DNA of 64,000 nt, taken from Bradyrhizobium sp. CCBAU 051011 (GTDB taxonomy: Bacteria > Pseudomonadota > Alphaproteobacteria > Rhizobiales > Xanthobacteraceae). The notes under the pieces were generated by a model. That model was not told the origin of the DNA and ran no database searches. It saw nothing but the letters and a program-made list of their open reading frames with translations. Below, piece after piece: positions 3,999 to 61,273 of this stretch; within the stretch, counting starts at the first letter, position 1; every line of letters begins with the position of its first letter. The position numbers were made by a program, and so were the translations under genes. Location of the stretch: NCBI RefSeq assembly GCF_009930815.1, contig NZ_CP022222.1, positions 2,460,501 through 2,524,500 on the forward strand. The letters are read 5' to 3'.

Positions 3999-4362
3999 GT
4001 CATTGCCGGGCTTGACCCGGCAATCCATCGTCCGCGCTAGCGGACAATCTCATCGTACAAATCCTTCCAGTCGGGATTGCCCGCGACAATCAGATCGATT
4101 TTCCACTCGCGCGACCAATGCTTGATGTTCTTTTCGCGTTGAAGCGCGACCGCAATTGCGTCGTGTGCTTCGAAATATACCAGCGTCTTGATGCCGTATC
4201 GCTTGGTAATCCGTCAGCCAAGCCTTCCCGGTGCTGGTAGACGCGCCTCACTAGATTGTTCGTCACACCGATATACAGTGTTCCGCCGGGTTTGCTCGCG
4301 AGGATGTACACCCAATAGGTCATTTTGTTTTGATGGATTGCCGGGTCAAGCCCGGCAATGAC
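3999..4362. mobile_element. Cassette with perfect 30-bp inverted repeats enclosing a GIY-YIG gene
   Basis: Positions 3999-4028 and 4333-4362 are exact reverse complements over all 30 bases. Each end is itself a hairpin: arms ATTGCCGGG and CCCGGCAAT around a CTTGA loop, preceded by GTC and followed by CCAT on the outside-in reading. The only gene between them is the GIY-YIG reading frame. The cassette fills the dnaN-recF gap almost completely. The outer motif GTCAT...ATGAC is shared with nine other elements in this window. That the unit is or was mobile is inference. Confidence 0.6.
4037..4323 (-). pseudogene. GIY-YIG endonuclease domain protein, frameshifted
   Basis: This is a single-domain GIY-YIG nuclease of the small UPF0213-like type. 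From ATG 4323 the protein begins MTYWVYILASKPGGTLYIGV, containing the catalytic YVY-like and YIG segments and the conserved NNLVRRVYQHREGLADG. The frame then breaks near 4208-4212. As it stands it ends after 77 residues at 4090. Shifting by one base restores TKRYGIKTLVYFEAHDAIAV and QREKNIKHWSREWKIDLI, ending at TAG 4037-4039, the expected family length of about 95 residues. A single-base deletion at GGATTACC is the simplest explanation. It could also be a sequencing error. The conserved C-terminal helix with the K-W-R residues is lost in the unshifted product, so it is probably inactive. Confidence 0.8.
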
Positions 4363-4369
4363 AGTGAGC

Positions 4370-5488
4370 TCACACCCGCATTGGCATCAGCACATACAGC
4401 GCGCCCTTGTTGTCCTTGTCCTGCACTAGCGTCGGCGAGCCGGGGTCGGCGAGGCGCAGTACGGCGACTTCGCCTTCGATCTGGGCGGCGATGTCGAGCA
4501 GATAGCGCGAGTTGAAGCCGATATCGAGGGCGTCGGAGGCGTATTCTACTTCGAGCTCTTCAGTGGCGCTGCCGGAATCCGGGTTGGTCACCGACAGCAC
4601 CAGCTTGCCGGCGGACAGCGCCAGCTTCACCGCGCGGCCGCGCTCGCTCGAAATAGTCGAGACACGGTCGACCGCCGCCTCGAAATCCTTCTTGTCGACG
4701 ATCAGCTCCTTGTCGTTGTTCTGCGGAATGACGCGACCGTAATCCGGGAAGGTTCCGTCGATCAGTTTCGAGGTCAGCACGACATTGCCGAGCGTGAAGC
4801 GGATCTTGCCCTGCGACAACTCGATTTTGATTTCGGCTTCATTGTCCTCGATCAGCCGCTGCACCTCGCCCACGGTCTTGCGCGGTACGATCACGCCGGG
4901 CATGCCGGTCGCACCGGAGGGCAGCCCCAGATCGATCTGGGCCAGGCGATGTCCGTCGGTCGCAACACCGCGCAGGGTCGCGGCCTTGGCGCTGCCAGCG
5001 GTGTGCAGGTAGATACCGTTGAGGTAGTAGCGGGTCTCTTCGGTCGAGATCGCAAACTGCGTACGGTCGATCAGGCGCTTGACGTCGGAAGCCGGAAGCG
5101 AAAACGAATGCGTCATGTCGCCGGCGGCAAGGTCCGGGAAGTCGCTTTCGGGCAGCGTCTGCAGCGTGAAGCGCGAGCGGCCGGCGCGAATGGCCATCAC
5201 CGAGCGGTCGCCGTCCGCTTCCAGCACGATCTGGGAGCCGTCGGGCAGTTTGCGGACGATGTCGTAGAACATATGGGCCGGCACGGTGGTGGAGCCGCCG
5301 GTCGCGGTCTCCGCCGCCAGGGTTTCGGTCACCTCGAGGTCGAGGTCGGTCGCCTTCAGCGACAGCCTGGCGTTTTCGGCGCGGACCAGCACGTTGCCGA
5401 GGATCGGGATGGTATTTCGGCGCTCGACCACGCGATGGACGTGACCCAGCGATTTCAGCAGTTGCGCGCGTTCGACGGTGACCTTCAT
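4370..5488 (-). CDS. dnaN: DNA polymerase III sliding clamp (beta subunit)
   Basis: This homodimeric ring tethers the replicative polymerase to DNA. The 372-residue product starts MKVTVERAQLLKSLGHVHRV at ATG 5488. An upstream in-frame ATG at 5530 would add 14 residues outside the family pattern. Conserved stretches include TIPILGNVLVRAE, the second-domain LIDRTQFAISTEETRYYLNG and the C-terminal YVLMPMRV, which closes the clamp's peptide-binding pocket. It is transcribed from the dnaA side. Confidence 0.97.
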   Translation of the reverse strand: MKVTVERAQLLKSLGHVHRVVERRNTIPILGNVLVRAENARLSLKATDLDLEVTETLAAETATGGSTTVPAHMFYDIVRKLPDGSQIVLEADGDRSVMAIRAGRSRFTLQTLPESDFPDLAAGDMTHSFSLPASDVKRLIDRTQFAISTEETRYYLNGIYLHTAGSAKAATLRGVATDGHRLAQIDLGLPSGATGMPGVIVPRKTVGEVQRLIEDNEAEIKIELSQGKIRFTLGNVVLTSKLIDGTFPDYGRVIPQNNDKELIVDKKDFEAAVDRVSTISSERGRAVKLALSAGKLVLSVTNPDSGSATEELEVEYASDALDIGFNSRYLLDIAAQIEGEVAVLRLADPGSPTLVQDKDNKGALYVLMPMRV

Positions 5489-5704
5489 TGCAATACCCGC
5501 CAGAGATGGAAAAGCCGGGCGGCCCGTCAAGGCAGCGCCGCGGCATTGGAAACCCGAAAAGCCGGATCAGGATCGGATTTGATCAAACCCCCGGGGGGAC
5601 CGCAAGGTGGCGCGGATGGGGCGCCGGTGCAAGGGAGACAGGGCCGCGTTCCCCCACTTTTGCCGCAGAAAATGGCAGCAGAAAAAAATTCTCCCGCCCC
5701 ACCC

Positions 5705-5764
5705 AACTCGGGCTTTACCCGAGTTAGGCATCCTAATTGTCGAAGTCGGATAGATCCGACTTCG
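5705..5764. terminator. Two tandem hairpins between dnaA and dnaN
   Basis: In the 329-bp dnaA-dnaN gap, 5705-5725 has arms AACTCGGG and CCCGAGTT around a 5-nt loop. Positions 5741-5764 have perfect 11-bp arms (CGAAGTCGGAT and ATCCGACTTCG) around 2 nt. Read from dnaA they form two successive hairpins. There is no immediate T-run; an A/T stretch appears about 20 nt further on. Partial termination, RNA processing or an operator are all possible. Confidence 0.45.
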
Positions 5765-5817
5765 ATGAATCAGGGGCGGGAGAGGCTGGGAGGAGCCAGG
5801 TCCTTTCCTGTTAGCCG

Positions 5818-7248
5818 CTATTCCTGCAACTGCCGCTTCAGCGACTCGACCTCTTCGGACAGCGCATTGTCCCGGGCCACCAATGCCTCGATCTTGCGCA
5901 CGGCGTGCAGCACAGTGGTGTGATCGCGCCCGCCGAACCGGCGGCCGATCTCGGGCAGCGAACGCAGCGTCAGCGTCTTCGCCAGATACATCGCGACCTG
6001 ACGCGGGCGGACGACGTTCGCGGTCCGGCGGGACGACAGCAGGTCCGAACGGCTGACATTGTATTGCCGCGCGACCACCCGCTGGATGTCCTCGATCTTG
6101 ATCCGCTTCGGTTCCTGCGGACGGATCAAGTCGCGCACCTCGCGTTCGGCCATTTCCAGCGTCACAGGCTGGTTGTTGAGCTTGGAGTGGGCGAGCAGGC
6201 GGTTGATGGCGCCTTCGAGGTCGCGGCCATTATGGGTGATGGTGCGCGCCAGATAATCCAGCACTGTTTCCGGCACGTCGAAGCTCGCGTGATGCGCGCG
6301 GGCCGCGGCCACGCGCGATTTGAGGATTCCGAGCCGCAGCTCTTCGCCGAGCGAGGCCATCTCGACGACGAGCCCACCGGCGAGCCGCGAGCGCACGCGG
6401 TCGTCGAGGCTTTCGAGATCTGACGGCGGACGGTCGGCGGCGATCACCACCTGGCGGCCGGCATCGATCAGCGCGTTCAGCGTGTGGCAGAACTCGGCCT
6501 GGGTCGACTTGCCCTGCAGGAACTGCAAATCGTCGATCACGAGCACGTCGATGCCGCGCAGCGCTTCCTTGAAGGCCAGCGCCGTCTGCGTCTTCAGCGC
6601 GGCGACGAAGCCGTACATGAACTTCTCTGCAGTGAGATAGAGCACCTTGCGCTCGCTGCCGGAATTGCCGGCCCATGTCACCGCCTGCAACAGATGGGTT
6701 TTGCCGAGGCCGACGCCGGCGTGAATGTAGAGCGGGTTGAACATCACGGGGTCGCCGCGGCGTCCCTCGGCGACCTGGCGTGCGGCGGCATGCGCCAGCG
6801 TGTTGGAACGGCCGATCACAAAACTTGCAAAGGTCAGGCGCGGATCGAGCGGCGAGCCGCCGAGCGCATCATGGCTGGCGGATACCGGCGCGGTCGCGGT
6901 GGCGCGCAATTCAGGCGCGGGCCGGCCATTGGCCTGCTCGGTGCGGCGTTGATCGGCTGGTGCGGTTGCTTCCTTGGCGGGCGCGGCAGATCGCATCGCC
7001 GTGCGCACGGTGAGGTCGATCCGGTGTACTTCCGGCATCTCGGCCTGCCAGCACGTCAGGACACGGTCGGCGTAATGCGCCTGGATCCAGCTCTTGAGGA
7101 ACCGGGTCGGCACCGACAGATGCACGGCTTCGTCCTGCACGCCTTCCAGATCCATGCGCGCAAACCAGCTCGTATAGACGTCCTCGCCCACGCTCGTCCG
7201 CAACCGCCCCTTCACGCGCGACCAGCGATCCTGTTCCATGTTTGTCAT
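5818..7248 (-). CDS. dnaA: Chromosomal replication initiator DnaA
   Basis: This AAA+ initiator binds DnaA boxes and melts the origin. Counting from ATG 7248 the product is 476 residues: domain I begins [17 protein letters not shown], a low-complexity linker follows, Walker [11 protein letters not shown] lies near 177-186, Walker [11 protein letters not shown] near 240, and the DNA-binding signature [16 protein letters not shown] near 437-452. The start at 7248 was chosen because family members begin at this point. However, an in-frame ATG at 7341 is preceded by a good ribosome site (GGAGGTGA, 10 nt upstream) and would add 31 residues, so the longer form is a real alternative. Confidence 0.96.
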
Positions 7249-7491
7249 TGCCTGAAAACTTTTCTGAATGAGTAAATAGATATCTTGCGAAATCGTCTGG
7301 CGGCTGCCTTGCAGGTTTCCTGCCAGACGTGACCTCGACATGGCGCTTCAGTCACCTCCAGACACAGATCAGGCGTGCGGCGGAATCGCCGTTTGCTCAG
7401 ATCAAAGGCTGGAGGGAGTGAGAGGCTGCCGCGAGGTCAGCGCGTACTCGACGGTCTACCCGGAGCTCGCGTAAGGCGGCTAGATACGTTG

Positions 7492-7527
7492 TTCAGGGAT
7501 TCTGAAGCATTCAGAGATTCTGAAGCG
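7492..7527. repeat. Two-copy 18-bp tandem repeat with palindromes upstream of dnaA
   Basis: Positions 7492-7509 and 7510-7527 match at 16 of 18 bases. Each unit contains TTCAG...CTGAA arms; in the second the arms are TTCAGA and TCTGAA around GAT. Each unit contains one GATTC, a GANTC methylation site of the cell-cycle methylase CcrM. It lies about 150-280 bp upstream of the two dnaA start candidates, so a role in dnaA control is a reasonable inference. Confidence 0.55.
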
Positions 7528-8193
7528 GTCACGATTGAAATGGGCGTGTCGAATGTCGCGTTGATTCCGTAAAGCATAGTACCTCCCCCTCTCGCCGCGA
7601 GAACGCGCGACGAGCAATCAGATCACAAGTGTTTTCAAAGCCAGTCTGCCGCCACCGAACATCCGCTTGTTCGTCGCTGCGCCGCCGCGTACCTCAGTCT
7701 GTCGTCTTCAACACGTTCACAAGCTCCGCGTTCCCCATCGCTGCATTGTCGGTAAGCATCTCATTCCCCTTGTCCGGAGCGCGCTTGCAACGTGAGCGCT
7801 ACGCCGGGAAATTTAGACACAGAACAGCCGTTCTCATATTGCTATGAGTTACCAACTCAGCTTCGCTTGGAAAGCGCCGCTAACGCGCACACCGCCGCCG
7901 ATTTGCACGTCCGCTCTTGGGTCTCATACCGCGCTGGTCAGGAGAGCCTTGAACGTCGCGAACGAGTTACAAATACACCAAGCGCGATTTCTGACAATCC
8001 GTGATTCGACGCGGCTGCCCGACTCTTCGTCGGTGTTGCAACGCTGCAATTGCGAAACTCCACACCAAGTTTTTGAATCAGCGCAGAGAATCCGGCGGCG
8101 CGAAGGCGCGTGACAGTTTTCGCTGCACTCGCAAAATTTTTTAAGAAACCGTTACAATCGTGGTTACCGCGACCGTTTTTCAAAACGCTTGTC

Positions 8194-8221
8194 CTCGCTA
8201 TGTGGATAAGTGATTAGCGAG
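8194..8221. promoter_or_regulatory. DnaA box inside a perfect inverted repeat
   Basis: TGTGGATAA at 8201-8209 is the exact complement of the consensus DnaA box. It lies in the 14-nt centre between perfect 7-bp arms CTCGCTA (8194-8200) and TAGCGAG (8215-8221). It could serve DnaA autoregulation or an origin. No second perfect box was found in this gap. Confidence 0.6.
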
Positions 8222-8520
8222 ACGAAGTTTTTCGGAATTGTTTTTGAAGGGTAACCTTCGCGGCAGAGATGCGCATGGAGATGCCGGCACCAGATTTGGC
8301 GGCCGTTGTGCTCACGCCCTTCGCAACTGCGTACGATTACGCCGGTGCAATAAGTTGCACCTCGTAAAATTACGGGTGCGAGAAATGTGACACATGCGCC
8401 GGTGCCCTGCAATGAGACAATCGAATTGTCACGGTCGGTGCGGCGCGAGTCCTTCAGTGTGTGCCCGAAATTCAACAGGATGCACACGCGCGCCGAAATG
8501 GATCTTCCAGATCGTACGCA

Positions 8521-8549
8521 AAAGAAAAGCCCGGCGAAGCCGGGCTTTG
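8521..8549 (-). terminator. Rho-independent terminator of rpsT
   Basis: Read on the minus strand, AAAGCCCGGC and GCCGGGCTTT pair around a TTC loop and are followed by a T-rich tail (CTTTTCTTTT), starting 23 nt after the rpsT stop codon. Confidence 0.9.
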
Positions 8550-8572
8550 AAGAATATCGATTTCTGTTCAGT

Positions 8573-8839
8573 TCACTTCGCGAGCTTGGCGATCGCGTGC
8601 GTCAGGCGCGATACCTTCCGGCTCGCGTTGTTCTTGTGAATGATGTTGCGCTGCGCCGCCTGCATCAGTTCCGGTTCCGCGCGCTTCATCGCTTCCAGGG
8701 CTGCATTGCGATCGCCGCTCTTGATCGCTTCCTCGACGGTGCGGACCGCGCCGCGCATCTGGGTGCGGCGCGACTTGTTGACGATGGTGCGGCGGGCAAT
8801 CTTGCGGGTCGCCTTCTTGGCGGAAGTGGTATTGGCCAT
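8573..8839 (-). CDS. rpsT: 30S ribosomal protein S20
   Basis: This is a primary 16S rRNA-binding protein of the small subunit. The 88-residue lysine/arginine-rich product begins [18 protein letters not shown] and contains the conserved [17 protein letters not shown] and the C-terminal [16 protein letters not shown] segment. The start ATG 8839 has AAGGA upstream; an in-frame extension to 9007 does not resemble the family. rpsT upstream of dnaA is the usual Rhizobiales arrangement. Confidence 0.97.
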
Positions 8840-9208
8840 GTTCTCAACTATCCTTCGGCTGTCATCGCTCGGGTGGTCGGCCCTTGAGCGCGCCGGCCGT
8901 TCAAATTGCGTGGACGCTGGTTGTGTTTTCCAGGGTGTTCTGACGTAGCCGTTCTTGAGGATGCCATGGACGGAAGCCAAAATGCTACCGAAGGCGGCGC
9001 TGCTCAAAGAACAGCGGCGGCGGGATTGCGCCCGCCGCCATTGGGGGTCTTATAGAGGGCGAGTCCTGCACCGTCAACGCTTTCCGCCCGCCTTGGGGGC
9101 GGAAAAGGGGGCGTAAAGGGCGCGTAAGGTGCTGACGAGGTTGAATTTCCGGGGTGCCCCCGGTATTGGCTGACAGCCTTTTTCGGGGCGACAGGTATAA
9201 GGTGACGC
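8840..9208. other. Intergenic region upstream of rpsT
   Basis: This is a divergent gap of 369 bp between rpsT and a small membrane protein gene. A GC hairpin lies near 9010-9035 (GGCGGCGGG / CCCGCCGCC). It should contain promoters for both neighbours, but I cannot assign -35/-10 boxes with confidence. Confidence 0.4.
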
Positions 9209-9526
9209 ATGATCCGCGGTTTTTTCCGGCTTATTGGCCTCCTGCTCCTGGCCGGCGGATTCATTTTCATGGTTTATGACGGCGCCCGTTTTGTCGCCGA
9301 CCAGACCCTGCGGTTCACCCGGTTTGGCCAGTTCTGGAACGACGTCCATCAGTCCAGCCAGCTCGCGTTCCGGACCTGGCTGGAGGGCGTCTCGCCCTGG
9401 CTCTGGAACAGCGTCGTCAAGGCCCTGCTGGATCAGCCGGTGTTCGCCGTGCTGGGCGTGGTCGGAATTCTGCTCATGATCCTGTTCCGGCCCCGCAAGC
9501 CGCTGATCGGCTATTCGCGGGACTGA
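9209..9526 (+). CDS. Small conserved membrane protein of unknown function
   Basis: The product is 105 residues with a hydrophobic segment at about 5-24 ([20 protein letters not shown]) and another near 80-95 ([16 protein letters not shown]), ending in a basic tail. Between them is an amphipathic aromatic-rich stretch with several W and F. This is a two-pass inner-membrane topology. I do not recognise a named family. Coding is supported by length, normal composition and position between rpsT and msrA. Confidence 0.75.
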
Positions 9527-9648
9527 CCGCGGCTCCTGTCCCAGGGGGGCGTAACAGGGCTGCGGCTTCAGGCGTAAAGACATATATAGAAGTCCAACCG
9601 GCCGACGCGCATCGTCGCGTCCGCCGATGTCCCGCCTGGAGGTATTCC

Positions 9649-10308
9649 ATGTTGTTCATGCGCAAGACCACCGCGTTGCCGAGCGCAGCCGAAGCGCTGC
9701 CGGGCCGTGCCGCCCCGATACCGACCGCGACCACGCACTTCGTCAACGGCCGCAAGCTGCAGCCGCCCTATCCTGCCGGCCTGGAGCAGGCGGTGTTTGG
9801 TCTCGGCTGTTTCTGGGGCGCGGAGCGCAAGTTCTGGGAACTCGGGGACGGCATTCATGCCACCGCCGTCGGCTATGCCGGCGGCCATACCCCCAATCCG
9901 ACCTATGAAGAGGTTTGCTCGGGCCGCACCGGCCATACCGAAGTGGTGCTGGTCGTGTTCGATCCGAAGAAGATCTCCTACGAGCAGCTCCTGAAGACGT
10001 TCTGGGAAAGTCACAACCCGACGCAGGGCATGCGCCAGGGCAACGATGTCGGCACCCAGTATCGTTCGGCGATCTACACGTTTGGCGATGCGCAGCGCCA
10101 GGCCGCCGACGCATCGAAGGCGATGTATCAGAAGGCGCTGGCCGCAAAGGGGCTCGGCACCATCACCACCGAGATCGCGCCGTCGGGCGAGTTCTATTTC
10201 GCCGAGGACTATCATCAGCAATATCTCGCCAAGAACCCGGCGGGCTATTGCGGGCTGGGCGGCACCGGCGTGTCGTGTCCGATCGGCGCCGGCGTGTCTG
10301 CCGCCTAA
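9649..10308 (+). CDS. msrA: Peptide methionine (S)-S-oxide reductase MsrA
   Basis: It repairs oxidised methionine using thioredoxin. The catalytic motif GCFWG places the reactive Cys at residue 54; [21 protein letters not shown] and the acidic substrate pocket residues follow. Resolving cysteines are at C201 (PAGYCGLGG) and C210 (GVSCP), the three-cysteine MsrA type. At 219 residues it matches the long proteobacterial form. There is no signal peptide, so it is cytoplasmic. Confidence 0.95.
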
Positions 10309-10310
10309 CC

Positions 10311-10425
10311 GTCATTGCGAACCAACAGGTCGCGCCGCGCGCCCGATGAGAGGCTCCGCGAAGCAATCCATCTCTCCGTTCAGGGATAGAATGGATTGCT
10401 TCGTCGCTTCGCTCCACGCAATGAC
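10311..10425. repeat. GTCAT...ATGAC palindromic element, family C (long form)
   Basis: The element begins 2 bp after the msrA stop codon and runs from GTCATTGCGA to CGCAATGAC. Inner arms GAAGCAATCCAT and ATGGATTGCTTC form a hairpin. It carries an extra block (GTCGCG...CGCCCGATGA) also present at 19197 and, in reverse orientation, at 54210. Confidence 0.8.
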
Positions 10426-10520
10426 GGATGGTCTCGCCTCCGGGCTATGCGAGTGCCGCGTGCAAAAAACCCTTTGTTAACCATACCCGGTGCAAAACTA
10501 GAGCTGTCTCGCTTTGAGGG

Positions 10521-11282: not shown

Positions 11283-11290
11283 CGCGCAAA

Positions 11291-11320
11291 GCCGCATCGT
11301 CATTTTGATGCGGCTCTTTT
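11291..11320 (+). terminator. Rho-independent terminator after the export lipoprotein gene
   Basis: GCCGCATC and GATGCGGC pair around an 8-nt loop and are followed by TCTTTT, 8 bp after the stop codon. Confidence 0.88.
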
Positions 11321-12685: not shown

Positions 12686-12766
12686 GTCATTCCGGGATGG
12701 TCCGAAGGACCAGACCCGGAATCTCGAGATTCCGGGTTCGATGCTGACGCATCGCCCCGGAATGAC
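12686..12766. repeat. GTCAT...ATGAC palindromic element, family B
   Basis: The element runs from GTCATTCCGGG to CCGGAATGAC with internal hairpins (GGTCC/GGACC and GGAATCTCGAGATTCC). It lies between a Bug receptor gene and a convergent hydrolase gene. Related copies lie at 26248 and 61172. Confidence 0.8.
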
Positions 12767-19196: not shown

Positions 19197-19340
19197 GTCA
19201 TGCGAGCCAACGGGTCGCGCGAATGCGCGCCCGATGACAGGCTCCGCGAAGCAATCCATAGTGCCGCATAACGGATGGTGGATTGAATCGTCGCTCACGC
19301 TCCCTTGCGCAAACGCTTCGCGTTTGTCGCAGGCAATGAC
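19197..19340. repeat. GTCAT...ATGAC palindromic element, family C (long form)
   Basis: The element runs from GTCATGCGAGCC to GGCAATGAC, 18 bp after the HD-GYP stop codon. It shares the extra inner block with the copy at 10311 and carries an additional small hairpin (CAAACGCTTCGCGTTTG). Confidence 0.75.
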
Positions 19341-22536: not shown

Positions 22537-22618
22537 GTCATTGCGAGCGAAGCGAAGCAATCCATGACGCCACGCGCCGAGACATGGTTTGCTTCGTCGC
22601 TTCGCTCCTCGCAATGAC
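22537..22618. repeat. GTCAT...ATGAC palindromic element, family C (short form)
   Basis: The element runs from GTCATTGCGAGC to CGCAATGAC with GAAGCGAAGCAA / TTGCTTCGTCGCTTC arms, between two minus-strand genes. Confidence 0.8.
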
Positions 22619-26247: not shown

Positions 26248-26287
26248 GTCATTCCGGGTTCGATGCTGCGCATCGCCCCGGAATGAC
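26248..26287. repeat. GTCAT...ATGAC palindromic element, family B (short)
   Basis: The 40-bp copy runs from GTCATTCCGGG to CCCCGGAATGAC with an inner GATGC/GCATC hairpin, between the DUF899 and DUF1428 genes. Confidence 0.75.
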
Positions 26288-51014: not shown

Positions 51015-51096
51015 GTCATTGCGAGCGCAGCGAAGCAATCCATCGCGCCGAACACGGAGACCTGGATTGCTTCGTCGCTTCGCTTCTCGCATTGAC
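51015..51096. repeat. GTCAT...ATGAC-type palindromic element, family C (short form)
   Basis: The element runs from GTCATTGCGAGC to CGCATTGAC, 3 bp after the SDR stop codon. The arms are GAAGCAATCCA / TGGATTGCTTC. The right end has one change in the ATGAC motif (TTGAC). Confidence 0.75.
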
Positions 51097-51645: not shown

Positions 51646-51730
51646 GTCATGCGCGGGCTTGACCCGCGCATCTATCAAGAAAGACATTCAGCGAAGAGTG
51701 ATGGATTGCCGGGTCAAGCCCGGCAATGAC
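51646..51730. mobile_element. Gene-less copy of the inverted-repeat cassette (family A)
   Basis: The left end at 51646-51675 and the right end at 51701-51730 correspond to the two ends of the 3999-4362 cassette, with only 25 bp between. The right end is identical to the one at 4333-4362. The left hairpin is ATGCGCGGG / CCCGCGCAT instead of ATTGCCGGG / CCCGGCAAT, so both arms changed together and pairing is kept. The loop CTTGA is unchanged. Confidence 0.7.
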
Positions 51731-51734
51731 GGGT

Positions 51735-53111: not shown

Positions 53112-53351
53112 GGCAATTGCTCCGGGCGATCTGCGAAAATCGCAAAGATTATCCTCTGTGTCGGTGGCTTTGTCGCGGCATTAAATATGGGCGTGCGCGG
53201 CGCGGGTTTAGCCTGGTCCGGCAAATAACTCCTTGTTTCCATGCGGCAAAGCGCGCGGCTGTCGGCGCCAGCCGTAGATCAGCCAAGTCGCGTCACAAAG
53301 CCGCGAGCGTGTGCTAGGGTGCTCCAAAATCAAATGGGCAGGGGGGTAGAC

Positions 53352-54164
53352 ATGCCGCGGATGCTTGGGTTGCTCGTGCTTGCGCTGGTCGCGCTGGGCG
53401 GAAATTCTCTGGCGCAGGCCCAGACCAAACCTTTGGTCAAAACGCTGGGGCCGGATTTTCCCAAAACTGAAATCTTCATCGGCAACAGCTTCTTCTACTA
53501 CAACAACAGCATGCACAGCCACGTGCTGGCGATGCAGCGGGCCGCCGACGCCACCAACAAGCAGGCCTACCGCGCCACCTCGGTCACCATCAGTGGCTCC
53601 GGCATCGACTGGCATGATGTCGAAAGCTATCTCCGTCCAAAGGCGATCGGCTCCTATTCCTTCGACGAGCAGAACAACGTCGTCTTCAACAAGCTCGATA
53701 AATTGTTCGACGTCGCCATCATGATGGATTGCAGCCAGTGCCCGATCCATCCGACGCTCAAGTCGGTATTCACCGAGTTTGCCAAAAAGAGCAGCGAGAT
53801 CGTTCGCGCCAAGGGCACTAGGCCGGTGTTCTTCATGTCCTGGGCCTATGCCGACAAGCCGGAAATGACGGCGCAACTCGCCGAGGCTTATACGATCGCA
53901 GGCAATGCGAACAACGCGCTGGTGATCCCGGCCGGCCTCGCCTTTGCGAAAGCGCTCGACAAGCAACCCGAGATCAATCTGTACGCCGCCGACAAGCGCC
54001 ATCCGAGCCCGGCCGGCACTTATCTCGCCTCCTGTGTGGTCTTTGCCGCGCTCACCGGGCGCTCGCCGGTCGGCAACGCCCATCTCGCCGGCCTCGACGG
54101 ACAAACCGTAGCGTTCCTGCAAAACATCGCGTGGGACACCGTGCAGGAATATTACGGGAAGTAG
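53352..54164 (+). CDS. Secreted SGNH-hydrolase-like protein
   Basis: The product has 270 residues with a signal peptide (MPRMLGLLVLALVALGGNSL, cut after AQA). Block I is FIGNSFFYYNN with Ser46. The Asp-His pair is D214-H217 in DKRHPSPAGTYLASC. Asn in SFFYYNNS and the GSGIDWHDVE segment fill the other positions. It probably hydrolyses an ester outside the cytoplasm. ATG 53352 was chosen because the signal peptide starts there. Confidence 0.8.
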   Translation: MPRMLGLLVLALVALGGNSLAQAQTKPLVKTLGPDFPKTEIFIGNSFFYYNNSMHSHVLAMQRAADATNKQAYRATSVTISGSGIDWHDVESYLRPKAIGSYSFDEQNNVVFNKLDKLFDVAIMMDCSQCPIHPTLKSVFTEFAKKSSEIVRAKGTRPVFFMSWAYADKPEMTAQLAEAYTIAGNANNALVIPAGLAFAKALDKQPEINLYAADKRHPSPAGTYLASCVVFAALTGRSPVGNAHLAGLDGQTVAFLQNIAWDTVQEYYGK

Positions 54165-54209
54165 GGGGCGCTGCTTCCGGTGCCGCAATAGGGCAGAGCT
54201 GGCAACCCC

Positions 54210-54357
54210 GTCATTGCGAGGAGCTCGCGACAAAATTGCAAAGCAATTTTGCGCTGAAGCGACGAAGCAATCCATCTATCCCCGAGTTGAGGAATGGATT
54301 GCTTCGCGGAGCCTGTCATCGGGCGCGCGTTCGCGCGACCCGTTGGCTCGCAATGAC
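54210..54357. repeat. GTCAT...ATGAC palindromic element, family C (long form, reversed)
   Basis: The element runs from GTCATTGCGAGG to CGCAATGAC. The extra inner block appears as the reverse complement of the one at 10311 and 19197. A separate hairpin AAATTGC / GCAATTT lies near 54235-54252. Confidence 0.75.
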
Positions 54358-54390
54358 AGGGATAAGTCTCGCCGACCCTAACGAGAAACA

Positions 54391-55632
54391 TCACGCCTTG
54401 CGCTTCGCCGCTTCCTTCTGCAAATCCGGCGCGTTGATGGTCGGAATCGCAACCCGTCCCGGGCCGGTATGGGCAAGCGCCGCAGCCGCCTTTTCGTTCT
54501 CCATGATCTTGGCCATCACGGCCTGACCTGCGCGCTCGAACACCGCGCGGTTCTCGATCAGGAATTTCTGCGACTCGCGCAGCTTGGCGACGTAGCCGTT
54601 GATCTCCGGGATCACGTAGCGGGCAACCATGTCCCAGCTTCGCCGGGTATTTTCCGGATTGGCCCAGTCATGCACGAAGCCGATGATGGCGCCGACGCCG
54701 CCCGAGACGTGCATCAGGTTCTTGATGGTTTTGACCAGGTCGTCCGGCGTGCCGATGGTGGAGGCGGCATTTTCGCCGCCGGCCGTCTTCTCGATCGCAT
54801 CCTCGGGCGAGGTGAACGGCTCCAGCCCCGGCCGCTGCAGCGTGCGGACATTATATTCATTGTGCCAGCGCATCAGACCGGCGCCGGCCTCGCGCTGTGC
54901 CTGCTCGCGTGTCTCGGCGATGTGCCAGCTCAAGAGCACGCGCCAGTCGGAACGGCTCACCGTGGTGCCGGCCTTCCTGGCGGCATCCTCGGCAAAGCCC
55001 CATTGCGTCGGCAGCGCCATCAGGCCCTGCGTGGACATCGAGCCGAGCGAGATGATGCCGATGCCGTATTTGCCGGCCAGCGTCATGCCCGAGGGCGAGA
55101 TCTGCGACGCCACCACGAACGGCATATCTTCCTGCAGCGGCAGCAATTGCAGCGCGGCGTCCTGCATGGTGAACCAGTCGCTCTTGGCGGTGACGCGCTC
55201 GCCCTTGAACAGGCGACGGATGACCGCGATCGCTTCGTCCTGGCGGTCACGCTGCGTCATTGGATCGATGCCGAGCGTGTGCGCGTCGGAGGCGAGCGCG
55301 CCGGGCCCCGAGCCGAAAATGGCACGGCCGCCGGTCATCCAGTCGAGCTGCACCATGCGCTGTGCGACATTGTAGGGGTGATGATAGGGCAGGGAGACCA
55401 CGCCGGTGCCGAGCTTGATGCGCTTGGTGCGCTCGCCGGCCGCCGCCAAAAACATTTCCGACGAAGCGATCATTTCCCAGCCCGAGGAATGGTGCTCGCC
55501 GCACCAGAACTCGTCGTAACCAAGCGTGTCGATCTGCTCGACGAAATCGAGGTCGCGGCGGAACTGGAGCAGCGGATTCTCGCCGATCGGATGATGCGGG
55601 GCGAGAAAGGCTCCGAATTTCAGACGTGCCAT
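54391..55632 (-). CDS. LLM-class flavin-dependent oxidoreductase
   Basis: The product has 413 residues, luciferase superfamily. It begins ARLKFGAFLAPHHPIGENPL, with FWCGEHHSSGWEMIASSEMF, GTGVVSLPYHHPYNVAQRM and SGPGALASDAHTLGIDP, the FMN-binding pattern of the limonene-monooxygenase-like branch. A C-terminal helical tail of about 60 residues is longer than usual. It lies downstream of an Lrp/AsnC regulator on the same strand. The substrate is unknown. Confidence 0.9.
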   Translation of the reverse strand: MARLKFGAFLAPHHPIGENPLLQFRRDLDFVEQIDTLGYDEFWCGEHHSSGWEMIASSEMFLAAAGERTKRIKLGTGVVSLPYHHPYNVAQRMVQLDWMTGGRAIFGSGPGALASDAHTLGIDPMTQRDRQDEAIAVIRRLFKGERVTAKSDWFTMQDAALQLLPLQEDMPFVVASQISPSGMTLAGKYGIGIISLGSMSTQGLMALPTQWGFAEDAARKAGTTVSRSDWRVLLSWHIAETREQAQREAGAGLMRWHNEYNVRTLQRPGLEPFTSPEDAIEKTAGGENAASTIGTPDDLVKTIKNLMHVSGGVGAIIGFVHDWANPENTRRSWDMVARYVIPEINGYVAKLRESQKFLIENRAVFERAGQAVMAKIMENEKAAAALAHTGPGRVAIPTINAPDLQKEAAKRKA

Positions 55633-55824
55633 GGGGTTTGCTCTCCGAAATTAAATTATTGTTCTTTGGATTGGCTCGGCAGCAAACCTACGTGGTGGGC
55701 AGGGGCAAGGCAATGCTGCAAGCCCGCGGCCAGTGCATGGTTGTCGCGCGGCCCGGCCGACATGCCGTCGCCCGGAATTCCCGTTCCTGAGGCTCAATCA
55801 AACAGGCGCAGTGCGAGTCACGCG

Positions 55825-56280
55825 CTAAACGCGGACGCTCCATGTCTCCTTCGCCGTCGACAGCGTGATCAGTGTCTCTGTTCGCTCCACGCCATCCACG
55901 GCCTTGATGGTTTCAGTGAGAAACCGTTCGAGATCGCGCGTGGTGCTGACGCGCACCTTCATGAGATAATTCCAGGCGCCGGTGATGTGATGGCACTCCA
56001 GCACGTCGGGCGAGGCCTTCACCCGTTCCAGGAAAACCGCTTCGACCTTCGGATTGCTCCAGCTCACCATGATGAAGGCGAGCAGATCGAGTCCGATCGC
56101 CTCCGGTGCGATCCGGGCGTGAAAACCGGAAATCATGCCGGTTCGAACCAGCCGCTTGATGCGGTCGTTGATGGTGGAAACCGCGACGCCGATCTTCTCG
56201 CTGAGAACAGCCAACGCCTGACGGTCGTCATCCTGCAGCAGCATCAGCAGTTGCCGGTCGGTGTCGTCTAGTTTCGCCAT
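55825..56280 (-). CDS. Lrp/AsnC-family transcriptional regulator
   Basis: The product has 151 residues: an N-terminal HTH (LDDTDRQLLMLLQDDDRQAL and VAVSTINDRIKRLVRTGMI) followed by a RAM/ACT ligand-binding domain with VLECHHITGAWNYLMKVRV. It is divergent from the MFS exporter and upstream of the LLM gene, so it may control either one; amino-acid-type effectors are typical of the family. Confidence 0.93.
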   Translation of the reverse strand: MAKLDDTDRQLLMLLQDDDRQALAVLSEKIGVAVSTINDRIKRLVRTGMISGFHARIAPEAIGLDLLAFIMVSWSNPKVEAVFLERVKASPDVLECHHITGAWNYLMKVRVSTTRDLERFLTETIKAVDGVERTETLITLSTAKETWSVRV

Positions 56281-56688
56281 CAGCCCTCGCCAGGAATTTC
56301 GGAAGTCTTACGGAATTAGACCGGCCGCCGAGCGCCTGCAAAGGCTTTCAGTGACTTTTCCGGCCCTCTTCTCGAATGAAGTCCGGAATGTATCGGTAGA
56401 ACCACCAACAAAAACGGAAAAACCTGAAAATTCCGAAAATATACACTTAGAGGGCAACCCCGGTGCGGTCGCCTCACCACCGAAGGATCGCCAGCATTGC
56501 AGCGAGGGCGGCGGGCACAATTTCGAAACGGCAGACATGAAGCATCCTTCGCAACGCCGATGCTGCCTGGTCGCAGGCCGCGGGAGCTGCGTTCAGGGCA
56601 CGGGTGATCGCTTACCTCGGGGGTAATCGCGGACATGACCGCAGGCTGAGATCATCCGCCGCACAGTTTCCCGGACGAGGCCGTTCTC
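56281..56688. other. Divergent intergenic region between the Lrp/AsnC regulator and the MFS gene
   Basis: A gene-free 408-bp region. AATTTCGGA and ACGGAATT near 56295-56318 form a loose inverted pair that could be a regulator site, and there is an A/T-rich patch at 56403-56452. I see no gene, and no promoter I would commit to. Confidence 0.35.
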
Positions 56689-58095
56689 ATGCATCAGATC
56701 GTCTCAACTCCCGTCGATACTTCGCGCCGCTGGTTGGTGCTCGCGACCGTGGTTGCGGCGCAATTCATGTTCGGGGTCGATGCCTTCATCGTTAACGTCG
56801 CGATCCCGACCATTGCAGCGGAGCTGCACGCGAGCGCGGCGCAGATCGAGGCGGTCATCGCGATCTATCTGATCGCCTATGCGACGCTGGTCATTACCGG
56901 CGGGCGGCTCGGCGACATCTACGGCACGCGCAATGTGTTCATCGCGGGCGTGGCGGGCTTCACCGTCACCTCGCTGTGGTGCGGGCTGGCGCAATCCGGG
57001 CCTGAATTGATCGTGGCGCGGCTGGCACAGGGCGCGACCGCGGCATTGATGGTGCCGCAGGTGCTCGCCACCATTCACTTGCTGTTTGCGGATGCTTCAC
57101 GTGCCCGCGCCTTCGGCATTTACGGCATCGTGCTTGGGCTGGCCGGCGCGGCCGGTTTTCTGCTCGGCGGCCTCCTGGTGACGCTCGATCTCGCTGGCGT
57201 CGGCTGGCGCGCGGTGTTTTTCGTCAACGTGCCCTTCGGCGCCGTCATCATTGCCGCCGCCTTCAGGATCATGCCGACGTTTCAGCGCCGGGCCGGCACG
57301 CGGCTGGACATTTCAGGCGCCATCGTGCTGTTTCTTGGGCTGCTATGCCTGATCGGTCCGCTGCTATCAGGCCATGACATGCAGTGGTCGCCATGGGTCT
57401 GGCTGGTGATGGCGGCGGGTCTTGTCATCATCGCAGGTTTCCTGCGGCTGGAGCGCGCGGTCGCCCGCCGCGGCGGTATGCCGCTGATTGATCTTGCGCT
57501 GCTGTCGGATGCCACGTTCATGCGCGGGCTGGCCGCAGTGTTCTTTTTCTTCTTCGCCAACCTCTCGTTCTACCTGGTCATGACGATCTACATGCAGAAG
57601 GGGCTGCATATTCCGCCGCTGCAGGCGGGGCTGGTCTTCCTGCCGCTGGCGCTGACCTTCGTGGTCGCCGCACGGCATGGTGGAATGCGCACCAAACATC
57701 GCGGCACGCTGGTATTGATCGAAGGGTGCGCGGTGCAGATTGCCGGCCTGGTGACTCTGGTCGCTACGGTCGAATGGATCGAGGCGCCGTCCGTCATCGT
57801 GCTGGCGCTGGTGCTGACGGTCTTCGGTTACGGTCAGGGGCTTGTCATGGCGCCGCTTTCAGGCGCGGTGCTGTCGAGCGTTAGACCGGCCAGCGCCGGT
57901 GCGGGCTCGGGCATGTACGGCACGACGGCGCAAATCGCTAACGCCGCCGGCGTGGCGGCGATCGGCGCGGTATTCTTCGCGATCGAATCAGCGCACTCGG
58001 CGCGGCTGGCATTGCTCGCTTCTGTCGCGCTGTTTGTCGCGTCGATCCTCGCCTGCGCCGCATTCCTGACATGGATGCGTCGGATCACAGGATGA
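56689..58095 (+). CDS. MFS transporter, DHA2 (14-TM drug:H+ antiporter) family
   Basis: The product has 468 residues with about 14 hydrophobic segments. The antiporter motif A-like GGRLGDIYGTRNVF follows TM2, VDAFIVNVAIPTIA lies in TM1 and a motif C-like GAAGFLLGGLLV lies in TM5. It probably exports a small hydrophobic compound from the cytoplasm using the proton gradient. Its divergent position to an Lrp/AsnC gene suggests control by that regulator. Confidence 0.92.
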   Translation: MHQIVSTPVDTSRRWLVLATVVAAQFMFGVDAFIVNVAIPTIAAELHASAAQIEAVIAIYLIAYATLVITGGRLGDIYGTRNVFIAGVAGFTVTSLWCGLAQSGPELIVARLAQGATAALMVPQVLATIHLLFADASRARAFGIYGIVLGLAGAAGFLLGGLLVTLDLAGVGWRAVFFVNVPFGAVIIAAAFRIMPTFQRRAGTRLDISGAIVLFLGLLCLIGPLLSGHDMQWSPWVWLVMAAGLVIIAGFLRLERAVARRGGMPLIDLALLSDATFMRGLAAVFFFFFANLSFYLVMTIYMQKGLHIPPLQAGLVFLPLALTFVVAARHGGMRTKHRGTLVLIEGCAVQIAGLVTLVATVEWIEAPSVIVLALVLTVFGYGQGLVMAPLSGAVLSSVRPASAGAGSGMYGTTAQIANAAGVAAIGAVFFAIESAHSARLALLASVALFVASILACAAFLTWMRRITG

Positions 58096-58220
58096 CACAT
58101 TAACGTCACCTGCCAAAATTTGATTGTGGGGAATGACAGTGCACGGCCTTTTTATTTTGCGGTGCAGCAACTATCTGTTCTTTGAAGAGTAGTTAAGAAC
58201 AATCGCCCCAGGAGCTGTCG

Positions 58221-59432
58221 TTGTCTCTCGCCAAGAACGTCGAATTCTTGCGCCATTTCCCGAAGCTGAACGGGTTCAATGGCTTGGGAATCTATGGCCG
58301 AAGCGCATCGCCCGGAGCTGAAAGTCCGCTGGTCGAAATCTCAGGATTCGGCACCAATCCCGGTGCGCTCAAGATGTTCGCGTATGTGCCGGAGCAATTG
58401 TTGCCCGCGCGCGCCCTTGTCGTCGTGCTGCACGGCTGCGGCCAGACCGCGACCGGTTACGATTTCGGCGCCGGCTGGTCGACGCTCGCCAAACGCTACG
58501 GCTTTGCGTTGTTGATGCCCGAGCAGCAGGCGGCCAACAACGCCAACACCTGCTTCAACTGGTTCAACCCGGGCGACATCGCGCGCGGCCGCGGCGAGGC
58601 TGCGTCGATCCGGCAGATGGTCGCGCGCATGGTCGCCGATCACAAACTCGATTCGCGCCGCATCTATGTGACCGGGCTTTCCGCCGGCGGCGCGATGACG
58701 TCGGTGATGCTGGCGACCTATCCGGAAGTGTTCGCGGGTGGGGCCATCATCGCGGGCCTGCCGTTCGGCATCGCCAGCAATGTCCGGGAAGCGCTCGGCG
58801 GTATGATGCAATCGACTTCACGCCCCTCGGGCAAGCTTGGCGATCTCGTGCGCAAGGCCTCCAAGCACAAGGGGCCGTGGCCGAAAGTGTCGGTGTGGCA
58901 CGGCAGCGCGGACCGCACGGTGAACCCGGGCAACGCCAACGAGATCATCAAGCAGTGGCTCGACGTCCACGGTCTGCCGACGGCGCCGATGTCGATCGGC
59001 GATGTCGACGGTCATCCGCGCGAAGTCTGGTGGAATGCCGACGGCGAGACCGTCGTCGAATCCTACACCATCACCGACATGGCCCACGGCACGCCGCTGG
59101 GGCTATCCGGCAGTGACGAGCGTTACGGCGCGGAGGGCGCGTTCCTGATCGAGGCAGGGATTTCCTCGTCCTATCACATCGCCAATTTTTTTGGCCTGAC
59201 CGAACGCGTCAGCCCGGCCAGCGAAGCAGCCAAGCCGGCGCAGGCGCCGAAGGTCGTTGCATCGGCTGCCACGGAATCCCTGCAGTCGTCCGATCTTGCC
59301 GCCAGGCTCTGGTCGAGGTCTCACAAGCCGGTTCGCCAGCCCAAGCCGGCACCGCGCGAGCCGAAGCGACGCGGCATCGATGTCAGCGGCGTCATCACCC
59401 GCGCGCTGACGGCCGCGGGATTGATGAAGTAG
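58221..59432 (+). CDS. PHB-depolymerase-family esterase
   Basis: The product has 403 residues, read from TTG 58221 (AGGAG upstream). It has VVLHGCGQTATGYDFGAGWS, nucleophile Ser154 in GLSAGGAMTSV, Asp in HGSADRTVNP and His in MAHGTPLG. NTCFNWFNPGDIARG is the family's second marker. There is no signal peptide, and the C-terminal ~80 residues are proline/lysine-rich, ending IDVSGVITRALTAAGLMK. It could act on intracellular polyhydroxybutyrate or a related polyester. Confidence 0.88.
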   Translation: MSLAKNVEFLRHFPKLNGFNGLGIYGRSASPGAESPLVEISGFGTNPGALKMFAYVPEQLLPARALVVVLHGCGQTATGYDFGAGWSTLAKRYGFALLMPEQQAANNANTCFNWFNPGDIARGRGEAASIRQMVARMVADHKLDSRRIYVTGLSAGGAMTSVMLATYPEVFAGGAIIAGLPFGIASNVREALGGMMQSTSRPSGKLGDLVRKASKHKGPWPKVSVWHGSADRTVNPGNANEIIKQWLDVHGLPTAPMSIGDVDGHPREVWWNADGETVVESYTITDMAHGTPLGLSGSDERYGAEGAFLIEAGISSSYHIANFFGLTERVSPASEAAKPAQAPKVVASAATESLQSSDLAARLWSRSHKPVRQPKPAPREPKRRGIDVSGVITRALTAAGLMK

Positions 59433-59467
59433 CACGGCATCACGGCCGTCAGGCGGATATTTTCAGC

Positions 59468-60148
59468 TCACATCTCGCCGGTGAGGAACGGATTGGTCAG
59501 CCGCTCCTGGCCGAGGCTGGATCCGGCGCCATGGCCGCAGATGAAGCCGACGTCGTCGCCGAGCGGCAGCAACTTTTCCTTGATCGAATTGATCAGCGTG
59601 GCGTGGCTGCCGCCGGGCAGGTCGGTGCGTCCGACCGAGCCGTTGAACAAGACGTCGCCGACATGGGCGAAGCGCAATTCCTTGTTGAAGAACACCACGC
59701 TGCCCGGTGAGTGGCCGGGGCAGTGCAGGATGTCGAAGGTGAGGTCGCCGATCGAGACCTGATCGCCTTCGTCGAGCCAGCGGTCGGGCCCGAAATTGCG
59801 CACCCCGGTCATGCCGAAGCGCTCGCCGCTCGAGACGACGTTGTCGAGCAGGAATTTATCGGCGATATGCGGGCCCTCGATCTTCACCTGCAGCGCGTCG
59901 CGCAATTCGGCGGCGCCGCCGACATGGTCGATATGGCCGTGCGTCAGCCAGATCTTCTCGACCGTGACGCCGGTCTGCTTGATCGCTTCCAGTATTCTGG
60001 GAACATCCCCGCCGGGATCGATCACTACGGCCTTCTTAGAGGGCTCGTGCCAGATGATGGTGCAGTTCTGCTCGAACAGCGTCACCGGCACGATCATCGC
60101 GCCGGCCTTGGCCTGGTTTTCGGCCTGGGTATCGGTTTTGTTGTCCAT
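59468..60148 (-). CDS. Metallo-beta-lactamase-fold hydrolase (YcbL/glyoxalase II-like)
   Basis: The product has 226 residues. The zinc motif THGHIDHVGG is at residues 69-78, CPGHSPGSVVFF supplies the next His, GDVLFNGSVGRTDLPGGSHA the bridging Asp and ICGHGAGSSLG the last His. This is the hydroxyacylglutathione-hydrolase-like group lacking the long C-terminal domain. Cytoplasmic. Confidence 0.93.
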   Translation of the reverse strand: MDNKTDTQAENQAKAGAMIVPVTLFEQNCTIIWHEPSKKAVVIDPGGDVPRILEAIKQTGVTVEKIWLTHGHIDHVGGAAELRDALQVKIEGPHIADKFLLDNVVSSGERFGMTGVRNFGPDRWLDEGDQVSIGDLTFDILHCPGHSPGSVVFFNKELRFAHVGDVLFNGSVGRTDLPGGSHATLINSIKEKLLPLGDDVGFICGHGAGSSLGQERLTNPFLTGEM

Positions 60149-60309
60149 GGGGGCACCATATTCATCCCGGGAGGGTGGTCAACACGGCTTTGTAATCATC
60201 GTGTTACCGGCGTGTGATGCACACGGCTCCGTGATAGGGTTGCATGTGGTTTGACAGTTTGGCGTGCGCTGCCGGATAGCGCCGCCGCCGGCCAATTCCG
60301 GGGGTCATC

Positions 60310-61149
60310 GTGGTTTCGACAGTCGAGACTTCCACCAGCCAAGCTTCTGCGTCGCCGCTGGCCGGGCCCCGTATTACTGCCCGGGCCTTCTTCGTCAGCG
60401 AGCGCCTGAATATGTCGGGGCTCGAGCGCGGCGACGTCCTCGCCACGATACCGCTTGCGTTTCGCGTCAATGCGAATGGTGTCGCGATTCTGTTCCGCTA
60501 TGGCGTGGTGGTCCTGATCGGGCTGAATGCGCTGGAAGAGGAGGAGTTCCTGCGCGGCCTGGAACATCGGATGACGGGCAAGCTCGCGCGACGCGACGAG
60601 GAAATCGCCATCATCGAGCTGGCTCCGGAAAAGGAAGATCAGATCCCGCCCGGCGGCCCGATCTGCCTGCAGAGCCTTTCGCCCGACCGCTTGATCCTGA
60701 TCGGCGAGGCGCTGGCGAAGAGCGTCGTTCTGGCGCGGCACGAACGCGAGGTTGCCAGCGTCTTTGATACGACCGAACCGTTCGCGCGGGAACTGGCGCG
60801 GAGCGGGCGCATGCGCGGCAGCCGTCGCTCGATCCTGCAAAATATCGGCAACGCGCTTCTGGTGCGGCATCGGGTATCTGGGCCGGTCGAAGTGGAAGAG
60901 AAACCCGACGTGCTCTGGGACAAGCCGCATCTCGAGCGCCTGTATGCCCGGCTGGAGGACGAGTACGAACTCAAGGAGCGCGCTGAATCGCTGAACGGCA
61001 AGCTCGCCGTGATCGCCGAGAGCGCCCAGGTGTTGACCGATATCATCGACACGCGGCGCTCGCTGCGGCTCGAAGTGATTATCGTGCTCCTGATCCTGTT
61101 CGAGGTTCTGGTGACTATCTATCAACTCGCCATGGGGCGGCACACCTGA
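60310..61149 (+). CDS. RMD1 (DUF155) family protein
   Basis: The product has 279 residues from GTG 60310. The DUF155 domain is at about 60-230, with LFRYGVVVLIGLNALEEEEF, an EKPDVLWDKPHLERLYARLE segment and NGKLAVIAESAQVLTDIIDT. A C-terminal hydrophobic anchor (VIIVLLILFEVLVTIYQLA) makes it a tail-anchored membrane protein. Yeast RMD1 relatives act in meiosis and mitochondria; the bacterial role is unknown. Confidence 0.9.
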   Translation: MVSTVETSTSQASASPLAGPRITARAFFVSERLNMSGLERGDVLATIPLAFRVNANGVAILFRYGVVVLIGLNALEEEEFLRGLEHRMTGKLARRDEEIAIIELAPEKEDQIPPGGPICLQSLSPDRLILIGEALAKSVVLARHEREVASVFDTTEPFARELARSGRMRGSRRSILQNIGNALLVRHRVSGPVEVEEKPDVLWDKPHLERLYARLEDEYELKERAESLNGKLAVIAESAQVLTDIIDTRRSLRLEVIIVLLILFEVLVTIYQLAMGRHT

Positions 61150-61171
61150 GCGGGGCCGTTATTGCAGATGG

Positions 61172-61273
61172 GTCATTCCGGGATGGTCCGTAAGGACCAG
61201 ACCTCAGGGGCGCAATTGCGCCCCGGGGAATCTCGAGATTCCGGGTTCTCGCTTTCGCGAGCCCCGGAATGAC
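61172..61273. repeat. GTCAT...ATGAC palindromic element, family B (long)
   Basis: The element runs from GTCATTCCGGG to CCCCGGAATGAC. It has three inner palindromes: GGTCC/GGACC, GGGGCGCAATTGCGCCCC and GGAATCTCGAGATTCC. It lies between convergent genes. Confidence 0.8.

Follow-up and report, generated by a model that had tools for sequence, protein, structure and literature searches.

GIY-YIG single-strand site-specific nucleases, named Ssn, were reportedly tied by Chenal et al. in 2025 to a Neisseria repeat that occurs in hundreds of copies, and this enzyme-repeat pair is said to modulate natural transformation. The CGTC-tagged repetitive extragenic palindromes (REPs) are repeats with a CGTC or TGTC tag, a stem that starts with AT and a CCA tail, and they mostly lie between genes as head-to-head pairs (PMC3733652). 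In the available part of the survey by Di Nocera et al. (2013, PMC3733652), the families CGTC-1 and CGTC-3 are given from Bradyrhizobium, the Neisseria CGTC-1 repeat is equated with dRS3, CGTC REPs appear without a dedicated transposase or other enzyme, and the term GIY-YIG occurs 0 times. The same text reports no RAYT transposase flanked by CGTC units and leaves it open whether RAYTs act on them in trans. The repeats themselves are already known, and the gap as to their enzyme has, as far as that text goes, been in print since 2013. The present analysis concerns a stretch of 64,000 nucleotides, called the window below, from the single-contig 9.1-Mb genome of Bradyrhizobium sp. CCBAU 051011 (NZ_CP022222.1, here G000:C1:2460501-2524500; GC 62.7%). 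Ten intergenic elements sharing the ends GTCAT...ATGAC had been described in it, with interiors of three families (A, with a GCCGGG hairpin; B, with TCCGGG; C, with GCGAGC), and a single recognising enzyme, with a GIY-YIG protein as candidate, had been proposed for all of them. These ten elements are CGTC-tagged REPs, as head-to-head pairs or their remnants, the B type with a partial fit, and a small GIY-YIG nuclease is well supported as the partner of such REPs.

With a probability of roughly 0.6, this nuclease is the cognate enzyme of CGTC REPs, cutting the hairpin near the tag, with spread aided by the host and gene loss leaving short pairs behind. A complete element consists of a REP, a small GIY-YIG gene and an inverted REP, about 390 bp in all. 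The nuclease, of some 96 residues, would recognise the REP hairpin in single-stranded DNA and cut near an invariant YGTCAT tag; we infer that cleavage takes place, at this position and on this substrate, and that cutting is the cause of spread. The tag would be common to all families, and stem and loop would determine which enzyme acts. Gene-bearing elements would move to, or convert, new sites, with host repair copying them, and loss of the gene would yield the short REP pairs that fill intergenic gaps.

Four PF01541 matches are present in the Bradyrhizobium genome: a uvrC-sized protein of 691 aa, a different short GIY-YIG protein without inverted flanks (L001), an intact protein of 96 residues (L002; C1:337471-337758) and a broken copy in the window. 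The L002 gene lies exactly between GTCATGGCCGGGCTTGTCCCGGCCATCCA and its inverted copy, an A-type REP, and is the sole intact copy of its subfamily in this genome. The preliminary description had placed a GIY-YIG gene inside one of the elements. That gene is indeed present, at 4046-4314 of the window, in a frame-broken form, and its intact counterpart is L002.

The flanks of the gene were compared at 130 GIY-YIG loci, a set that leans to fuller copies, as fragments and the weakest matches were left out; five loci were too short for flanks of 250 bases, hence 125 were compared. In 85 of the 125 genes, the sequence upstream matched that downstream once the latter was inverted. When both flank windows were moved outward by 300-1200 bases, the same comparison gave 1/123, 1/121, 0/118 and 1/117, and left and right flanks taken from different loci matched in 7.8% of 2000 trials. 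Strict hairpins were found on at least one side at 56 of 128 loci (2-5 in four controls) and on both sides at 24 of 128 (0 in the controls). A second, named set, made up of the best 80 of more than 586 loci and possibly overlapping the first, gave inverted flanks in 58 of 77 cases after removal of three that were too short, against 0/75, 0/75 and 2/72 at shifted controls. Judging by record names, flank-positive loci outside the alphaproteobacteria belong to Gallionellaceae, Deltaproteobacteria, Lacinutrix, Gammaproteobacteria, Nevskia, Omnitrophus and one Uhrbacteria; one Parcubacteria, one Campylobacteraceae and a second Uhrbacteria were negative, and one Bacteroidetes fell just below the threshold. 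The records from outside the alphaproteobacteria are mostly metagenome bins. The flanking hairpins carry the CGTC-REP features: among 104 that face outward (46 face inward), C or T precedes GTC in 98, the tag reads GTCAT in 94 and a CCA tail is present in 88. Elements with repeats on both sides of the gene have a median length of 393 bp (36 cases).

The enzyme and the repeats also occur together across the class. A sample of 241 genomes spread evenly over the class, the Bradyrhizobium genome included, contained a nuclease match at E 1e-8 in 82. For the association test that genome was excluded, carriers were defined at E 1e-17 and REP-rich genomes as those with at least 10 matches to a general CGTC-REP pattern. 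REP-rich were 46 of 73 carriers versus 19 of 167 non-carriers (p = 9e-16) and, when each family was represented by a single genome, 23 of 39 versus 8 of 87 (p = 8e-9). No such association was found for Y1_Tnp in the same 240 genomes, where 16 of 50 with the domain and 49 of 190 without it were REP-rich (p = 0.38). The GIY-YIG protein thereby stands as the best of the candidates, on account of its inverted flanks and of a co-occurrence that Y1 does not share. That RAYT (Y1) transposases spread CGTC REPs in trans is very improbable. The notion draws on the analogy with the tag and hairpin of GTAG REPs, and the 2013 text does not decide the matter (PMC3733652); against it, no PF01797 (Y1_Tnp) match was obtained in the Bradyrhizobium genome by a search that found the domain in 5 of 14 control genomes, the class-wide test was null, and the accessible text of the 2013 survey has no RAYT between CGTC units (PMC3733652). 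Mobilisation by RAYT was rejected for this genome and is unsupported across the class.

A protein search with the nuclease returned 7713 relatives at E 0.001, and an NCBIfam search gave nothing above its cut-off. The nearest named match among the best 80 of more than 586 loci, from Bradyrhizobium sp. PB1.002, is 99% identical. PF01541 was found in all 22 aligned members of the subfamily, and the alignment has invariant Tyr, Tyr, Arg, Glu and Asn, in agreement with an active GIY-YIG site, where such residues are catalytic; judged from the alignment, the active site is apparently intact. The structure model has a mean pLDDT (predicted local distance difference test score) of 93.8. A fold search with it retrieved the UPF0213 protein 1zg2 at E 2.5e-4, the only fold match below E 0.001, followed by entries of the structure-selective nuclease Slx1 (E 0.016-0.07) and the UvrC domain (E 0.6-1.7); 1zg2 was also matched by sequence at E 4e-7. 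The model confidently places the nuclease in the GIY-YIG fold, nearest to UPF0213, Slx1 and the UvrC nuclease domain. Some relatives (P0003, P0007) are annotated as proteins of 111 residues with a MAGLVPAIH-like start, and this N-terminus is the left REP read in frame (L002:1447-1491). Either the start codon of the nuclease may lie inside the left REP, or the annotation of 111 residues may be overlong. A relative of 150 residues (P0017) has one partial and one complete copy of the nuclease domain.

The ten elements of the window and the broken gene are as follows, in window positions, with a strand for the gene only and with the evidence in brackets.

3999..4362: gene-bearing element, with A-type REPs at 3999-4027 and, inverted, at 4334-4362 (sequence, relatives)
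4046..4314, minus strand: broken GIY-YIG gene, its halves 4177-4314 and 4046-4210 in different frames (tblastn-type matches; PF01541 above cut-off)
10311..10425: C-type (GAAGCAATCCAT) element with 9-nt inverted ends (sequence)
12686..12766: B-type (TCCGGG) element with a cloverleaf-like predicted fold (sequence, folding, flanks in relatives)
19197..19340: C-type element, with GTCATGCG at the left end and GCAATGAC at the right (sequence, relatives)
22537..22618: head-to-head pair of C-type REPs (sequence, folding, relatives)
26248..26287: lone half of a B-type element (sequence; fuller B or C elements in relatives)
51015..51096: head-to-head pair of C-type REPs with TTGAC at the right end (sequence, relatives)
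51646..51730: head-to-head pair of A-type REPs without a gene, the left stem differing from the right (hairpins, folding)
54210..54357: C-type element that carries an inserted hairpin (sequence; left-flank match in G259)
61172..61273: B-type element with a cloverleaf-like predicted fold (sequence, folding)

All ten elements were found at the starts given in the preliminary description, ATGAC closes nine of them (TTGAC the one at 51015), and the three interior families agree with what had been described. The elements also lie between the long open reading frames (ORFs) of a mechanical list, as had been stated, with one overlap: the element at 54210 reaches into the 5' end of the minus-strand ORF 53208-54275, whose true start may be later than listed. 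The gene-bearing element at 3999..4362 sits in the gap preceding the ORF 4370-5530 and has strict hairpins at both ends; the broken gene corresponds to the tblastn-type matches G000:C1:2464677-2464814 and 2464546-2464710 on the minus strand. The base before GTCAT is C or T at nine of the ten elements (G at 61172), so that the window elements show the CGTC/TGTC tag of CGTC REPs. The A-type units have the stem of 8-9 bp starting with AT, the short loop and the CCA-type tail; the C-type units have them with imperfect stems. The B-type units (12686, 26248, 61172) share the tag and the outer stem and lack the CCA tail, and their fit to CGTC REPs is partial; the two complete ones (12686, 61172) are those predicted to fold like a cloverleaf. 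Predicted folding of five stretches as single-stranded DNA, one REP and four whole elements, gave z-scores of -4.6 to -8.5. CGTC REPs exist in many copies, and a genome-wide search, which had been proposed as a check, gave 180 + 173 = 353 matches to the general pattern versus 0 + 0 for its reversed control; the C type alone (GCGAGC, up to 3 mismatches) gave 86 + 85. The head-to-head intergenic pairing was seen in the window itself.

It had also been considered that base composition might produce the shared ends. This was ruled out by shuffles of the window together with the reversed control. Seven of the ten elements are bounded by exact inverted repeats with a length of at least 8 nt (GTCATNNN...NNNATGAC, 30-420 bp apart), while 200 dinucleotide shuffles averaged 0.49 and never exceeded 3. 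Strict GTCAT hairpins number 4 in the window; 100 shuffles averaged 0.12, with at most 2. The bare pentamers prove little by themselves, because 5 of the 10 window matches to GTCAT-N20..50-ATGAC (shuffle mean 1.49) fall outside the elements. No target-site duplication was evident by eye beside the ten elements, and a search for plasmids with the first 25 kb gave nothing but short matches to conserved genes.

Shared ends had been taken as a sign of one enzyme. A common recognition chemistry is supported by the results; a single enzyme serving all families is unlikely, judged from the sequences, because the stem varies with the enzyme and a rare stem is confined to 3 of 241 genomes. Behind the common YGTCAT tag, different enzyme clades have different REP stems and loops, CCGACG and GCCGGG stems among them. 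In 3453 between-family pairs of loci, the more identical the proteins, the more similar the REPs (rho 0.129, against a maximum of 0.128 in 500 permutations), and the same REP is found in half of the 30 pairs that are at least 65% identical and in 1-5% of pairs below 55%. On a protein tree of 102 loci, the REP type changes 16 times, whereas 300 shuffles gave 29.7 changes on average and never fewer than 23. Distant paralogues within one genome mostly have unlike REPs. The rare stem, which was read beside two genes, in G079 and G082, occurs in G079 (17 copies), G082 (3, of which two are the gene's own flanks) and G066 (1). Typed flanks at 118 loci include 4 of C type and none of B type, and a plain search within 250 bases of the gene at 210 loci met a C-type start at 6. 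As none of the 210 loci has a B-type flank and the intact copy of the Bradyrhizobium genome is A-flanked, the B type, and in this genome also the C type, is left without an assigned enzyme. One genome, G092, has ten nuclease matches (L013, L036, L039, L043, L044, L052, L070, L078, L100, L101); five of its loci have comparable flanks, with unlike REPs, and offer a natural test bed for the specificity of enzyme for stem.

The homologous sites of relatives show turnover of the elements. At the L002 site, 11 of 20 congeners are nearly empty, with only 2-14 bases between the flank matches, and these also lack some 40-50 bases that the Bradyrhizobium genome has beside the element. G294 holds an open gene-bearing element there, G325 both REPs without a gene, G279 one REP only, and the other six a CCTC-type palindromic element instead. 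The site of the element at 3999-4362 was compared in 20 relatives: five have a GIY-YIG element, with a full-length open frame in G325 and G310 and an interrupted or altered gene in the other three, two have a short gene-less CGTC pair, ten a CCTC-type element, eight of these with readable DUF559 sequence (one Pfam-checked), and three have other remnants. The DUF559 loci at this site are L152, L153, L155, L158, L159, L162, L163 and L166. Most of the relatives compared have no CGTC element at the 10311 site, and G252 and G325 have one of C type; at 12686, the right flank starts exactly past the element in 6 of 15 relatives; at 22537, five of seven relatives have a C, B or A type; at 26248, the seven relatives compared comprise six with a more complete element of B or C type and one with a decayed B element. 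At 51015, the relative G271 is without the element, and at 54210 the left-flank match in G259 reaches exactly to it. At other sites, families are swapped between species at the same place. The comparison of insertion sites that had been called for thereby revealed gain, loss and change of family, without a readable exact junction or target duplication.

Two other explanations can be weighed against these histories. The chief rival holds that a selfish, homing-like GIY-YIG gene inserts into existing REP pairs by cutting and repair, and that the REPs spread by other means. GIY-YIG enzymes do include homing nucleases, REP-rich genomes without the gene exist, and the same intergenic sites are gene-bearing in some species and gene-less in others. 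At the L002 site, however, where the element is absent (11 of 20 relatives), almost nothing lies between the flanks, rather than a gene-less pair as the prior state. No alternative spreader was found in the Bradyrhizobium genome, in a search limited to Y1, and the stem varies with the enzyme as if the REPs depended on it, although homing would give the same. Taken together, homing appears unlikely. The second explanation, a cellular and non-mobile system in which the REPs are kept as marks that are cut in single-stranded DNA, for instance to limit the uptake of foreign DNA, is more improbable still. The reported effect of the Neisseria Ssn-repeat pair on transformation would suit it, as would an enzyme of 96 residues whose active site is apparently intact. 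It fits poorly with a patchy presence in 82 of 241 genomes of the class, with the copies found broken, with the loss of genes and the turnover of elements seen when homologous sites are compared among species, and with several paralogues having different REPs inside one genome.

Several observations weigh against a nuclease that spreads CGTC REPs. By the criterion used, an inverted flank is lacking at 40 of the 125 genes; the direct, non-inverted comparison of flanks also scores, in 54 of 125, because REPs are palindromes. Ten genomes with at least 20 REP matches have no subfamily match at E 1e-17, and in six of these a uvrC-sized GIY-YIG protein is the sole PF01541 match; conversely, the REP pattern is matched fewer than 8 times in 24 carriers. 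The protein tree, reduced to 24 loci so that each family has one, gives 5 changes versus 7.4, which is not significant, and close paralogues (66% identical) have unlike REPs in two genomes, G219 and G092. No gene with B-type flanks was found at 210 loci, counting starts within 250 bases. An exact insertion junction or target duplication, sought at homologous sites in relatives, could not be read. Host steps must also be assumed, because a hydrolytic nuclease alone cannot join DNA. As to the exceptions in co-occurrence, REPs may outlive the enzyme, draft assemblies may drop a gene flanked by repeats, or one pattern may miss many REP types. The genomes G198 and G203, and also G068, G069, G077 and G176, have 38-175 CGTC-REP matches with a uvrC-sized protein as the sole PF01541 match; in genomes such as G198 and G203, the enzyme may have been lost, the assembly may have a gap, or a different spreader may be at work.

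A second kind of gene enclosed by palindromes was found in the DUF559 (PF04480) loci. Such genes lie at L190-L193 in the Bradyrhizobium genome and at L215-L244. Of 35 loci, three are cut by contig ends, hence 32 were compared. In 23 of the 32, the gene lies between inverted CCTC(T/C)CC...GGGGAGAGG palindromes, versus 0, 1 and 1 of 32 in shifted controls. CCTCnCC palindromes are present at 26 of 32 DUF559 loci and at 0 of 130 GIY-YIG loci; the GTC hairpin is present at 5 of 32 and 65 of 130, respectively. This suggests a parallel system of nuclease and palindrome. It also bears on the view that small genes and REPs merely crowd into the same tolerant gaps and that flanking is a by-product, for which it speaks that one and the same gap may hold a GIY-YIG element in one species and a different palindromic element in another. 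DUF559 genes are as small and as intergenic as the GIY-YIG genes and share their gaps, yet they carry different palindromes, a comparison by which crowding was rejected as an explanation; we consider it highly improbable. Nor are all GIY-YIG proteins alike, since inverted flanks are lacking at 7 of 8 short GIY-YIG genes that fall outside the subfamily, and a different palindrome stands at the eighth. This eighth gene, L145 (G063:C289), lies between inverted CTCATCCTTCGACAGGCTCAGGATGAGG palindromes (CTCATCC) and codes for another type of GIY-YIG protein; it is one locus, and may be a third case of an enzyme with its palindrome.

A broader proposition, that small hydrolytic nucleases spread palindromes and that this arose at least twice, with GIY-YIG proteins and CGTC REPs and with the restriction-nuclease-like DUF559 proteins and CCTCTCCC, is held tentatively, at somewhat less than even odds; a hairpin would be cut in single-stranded DNA, the host would copy, and gene-less units would be by-products. 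The DUF559 parallel suggests that nuclease genes lying within the palindromes which they themselves target may be a general principle. CGTC REPs occur widely in the alphaproteobacteria, and with a GIY-YIG partner the question of their enzyme can be put directly to the test, using some 96 residues of protein and 29 bases of DNA. If the proposal is true, the enzyme that acts on tagged hairpins here has no relation to the RAYT class, and a shared tag is combined with a stem-specific code that has varied many times in evolution.

Among the matches listed from the open-licence literature, titles and the openings of abstracts held no link of CGTC REPs or dRS3 to GIY-YIG proteins, nor of DUF559 to palindromic repeats. 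As far as this literature shows, there is no precedent for the element anatomy, the class-wide statistics, the co-variation of stem and enzyme, the site histories or the DUF559 parallel. The Ssn report probably anticipates part of the link between enzyme and repeat, which limits the novelty.

In comparison with known systems, the UPF0213 proteins (1zg2, 1ywl), Slx1 and the UvrC nuclease domain have their fold in common with the REP-linked nuclease; to our knowledge, none of them is linked with a repeat family. Ssn is reportedly likewise a small GIY-YIG protein linked with a repeat; the gene-bearing elements, the stem co-variation and the site histories come from the present analysis. Non-autonomous elements of the miniature inverted-repeat transposable element (MITE) type resemble the window elements in the inverted ends of seven of the ten and in having a gene-bearing counterpart, without a target duplication or an exact junction having been read. 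Relative to CGTC-1 and CGTC-3, the gene-bearing elements seen here are absent from the available part of the 2013 description (PMC3733652). The closest likeness in form is to the GTAG REPs and REPINs of the RAYTs (IS200/IS605-type Y1), which also combine a tag with a hairpin, form inverted pairs and exist in gene-bearing and gene-less forms. The CGTC REPs differ from these in their tag and in an unrelated enzyme, with no Y1_Tnp in the Bradyrhizobium genome and no co-occurrence with it across the class.

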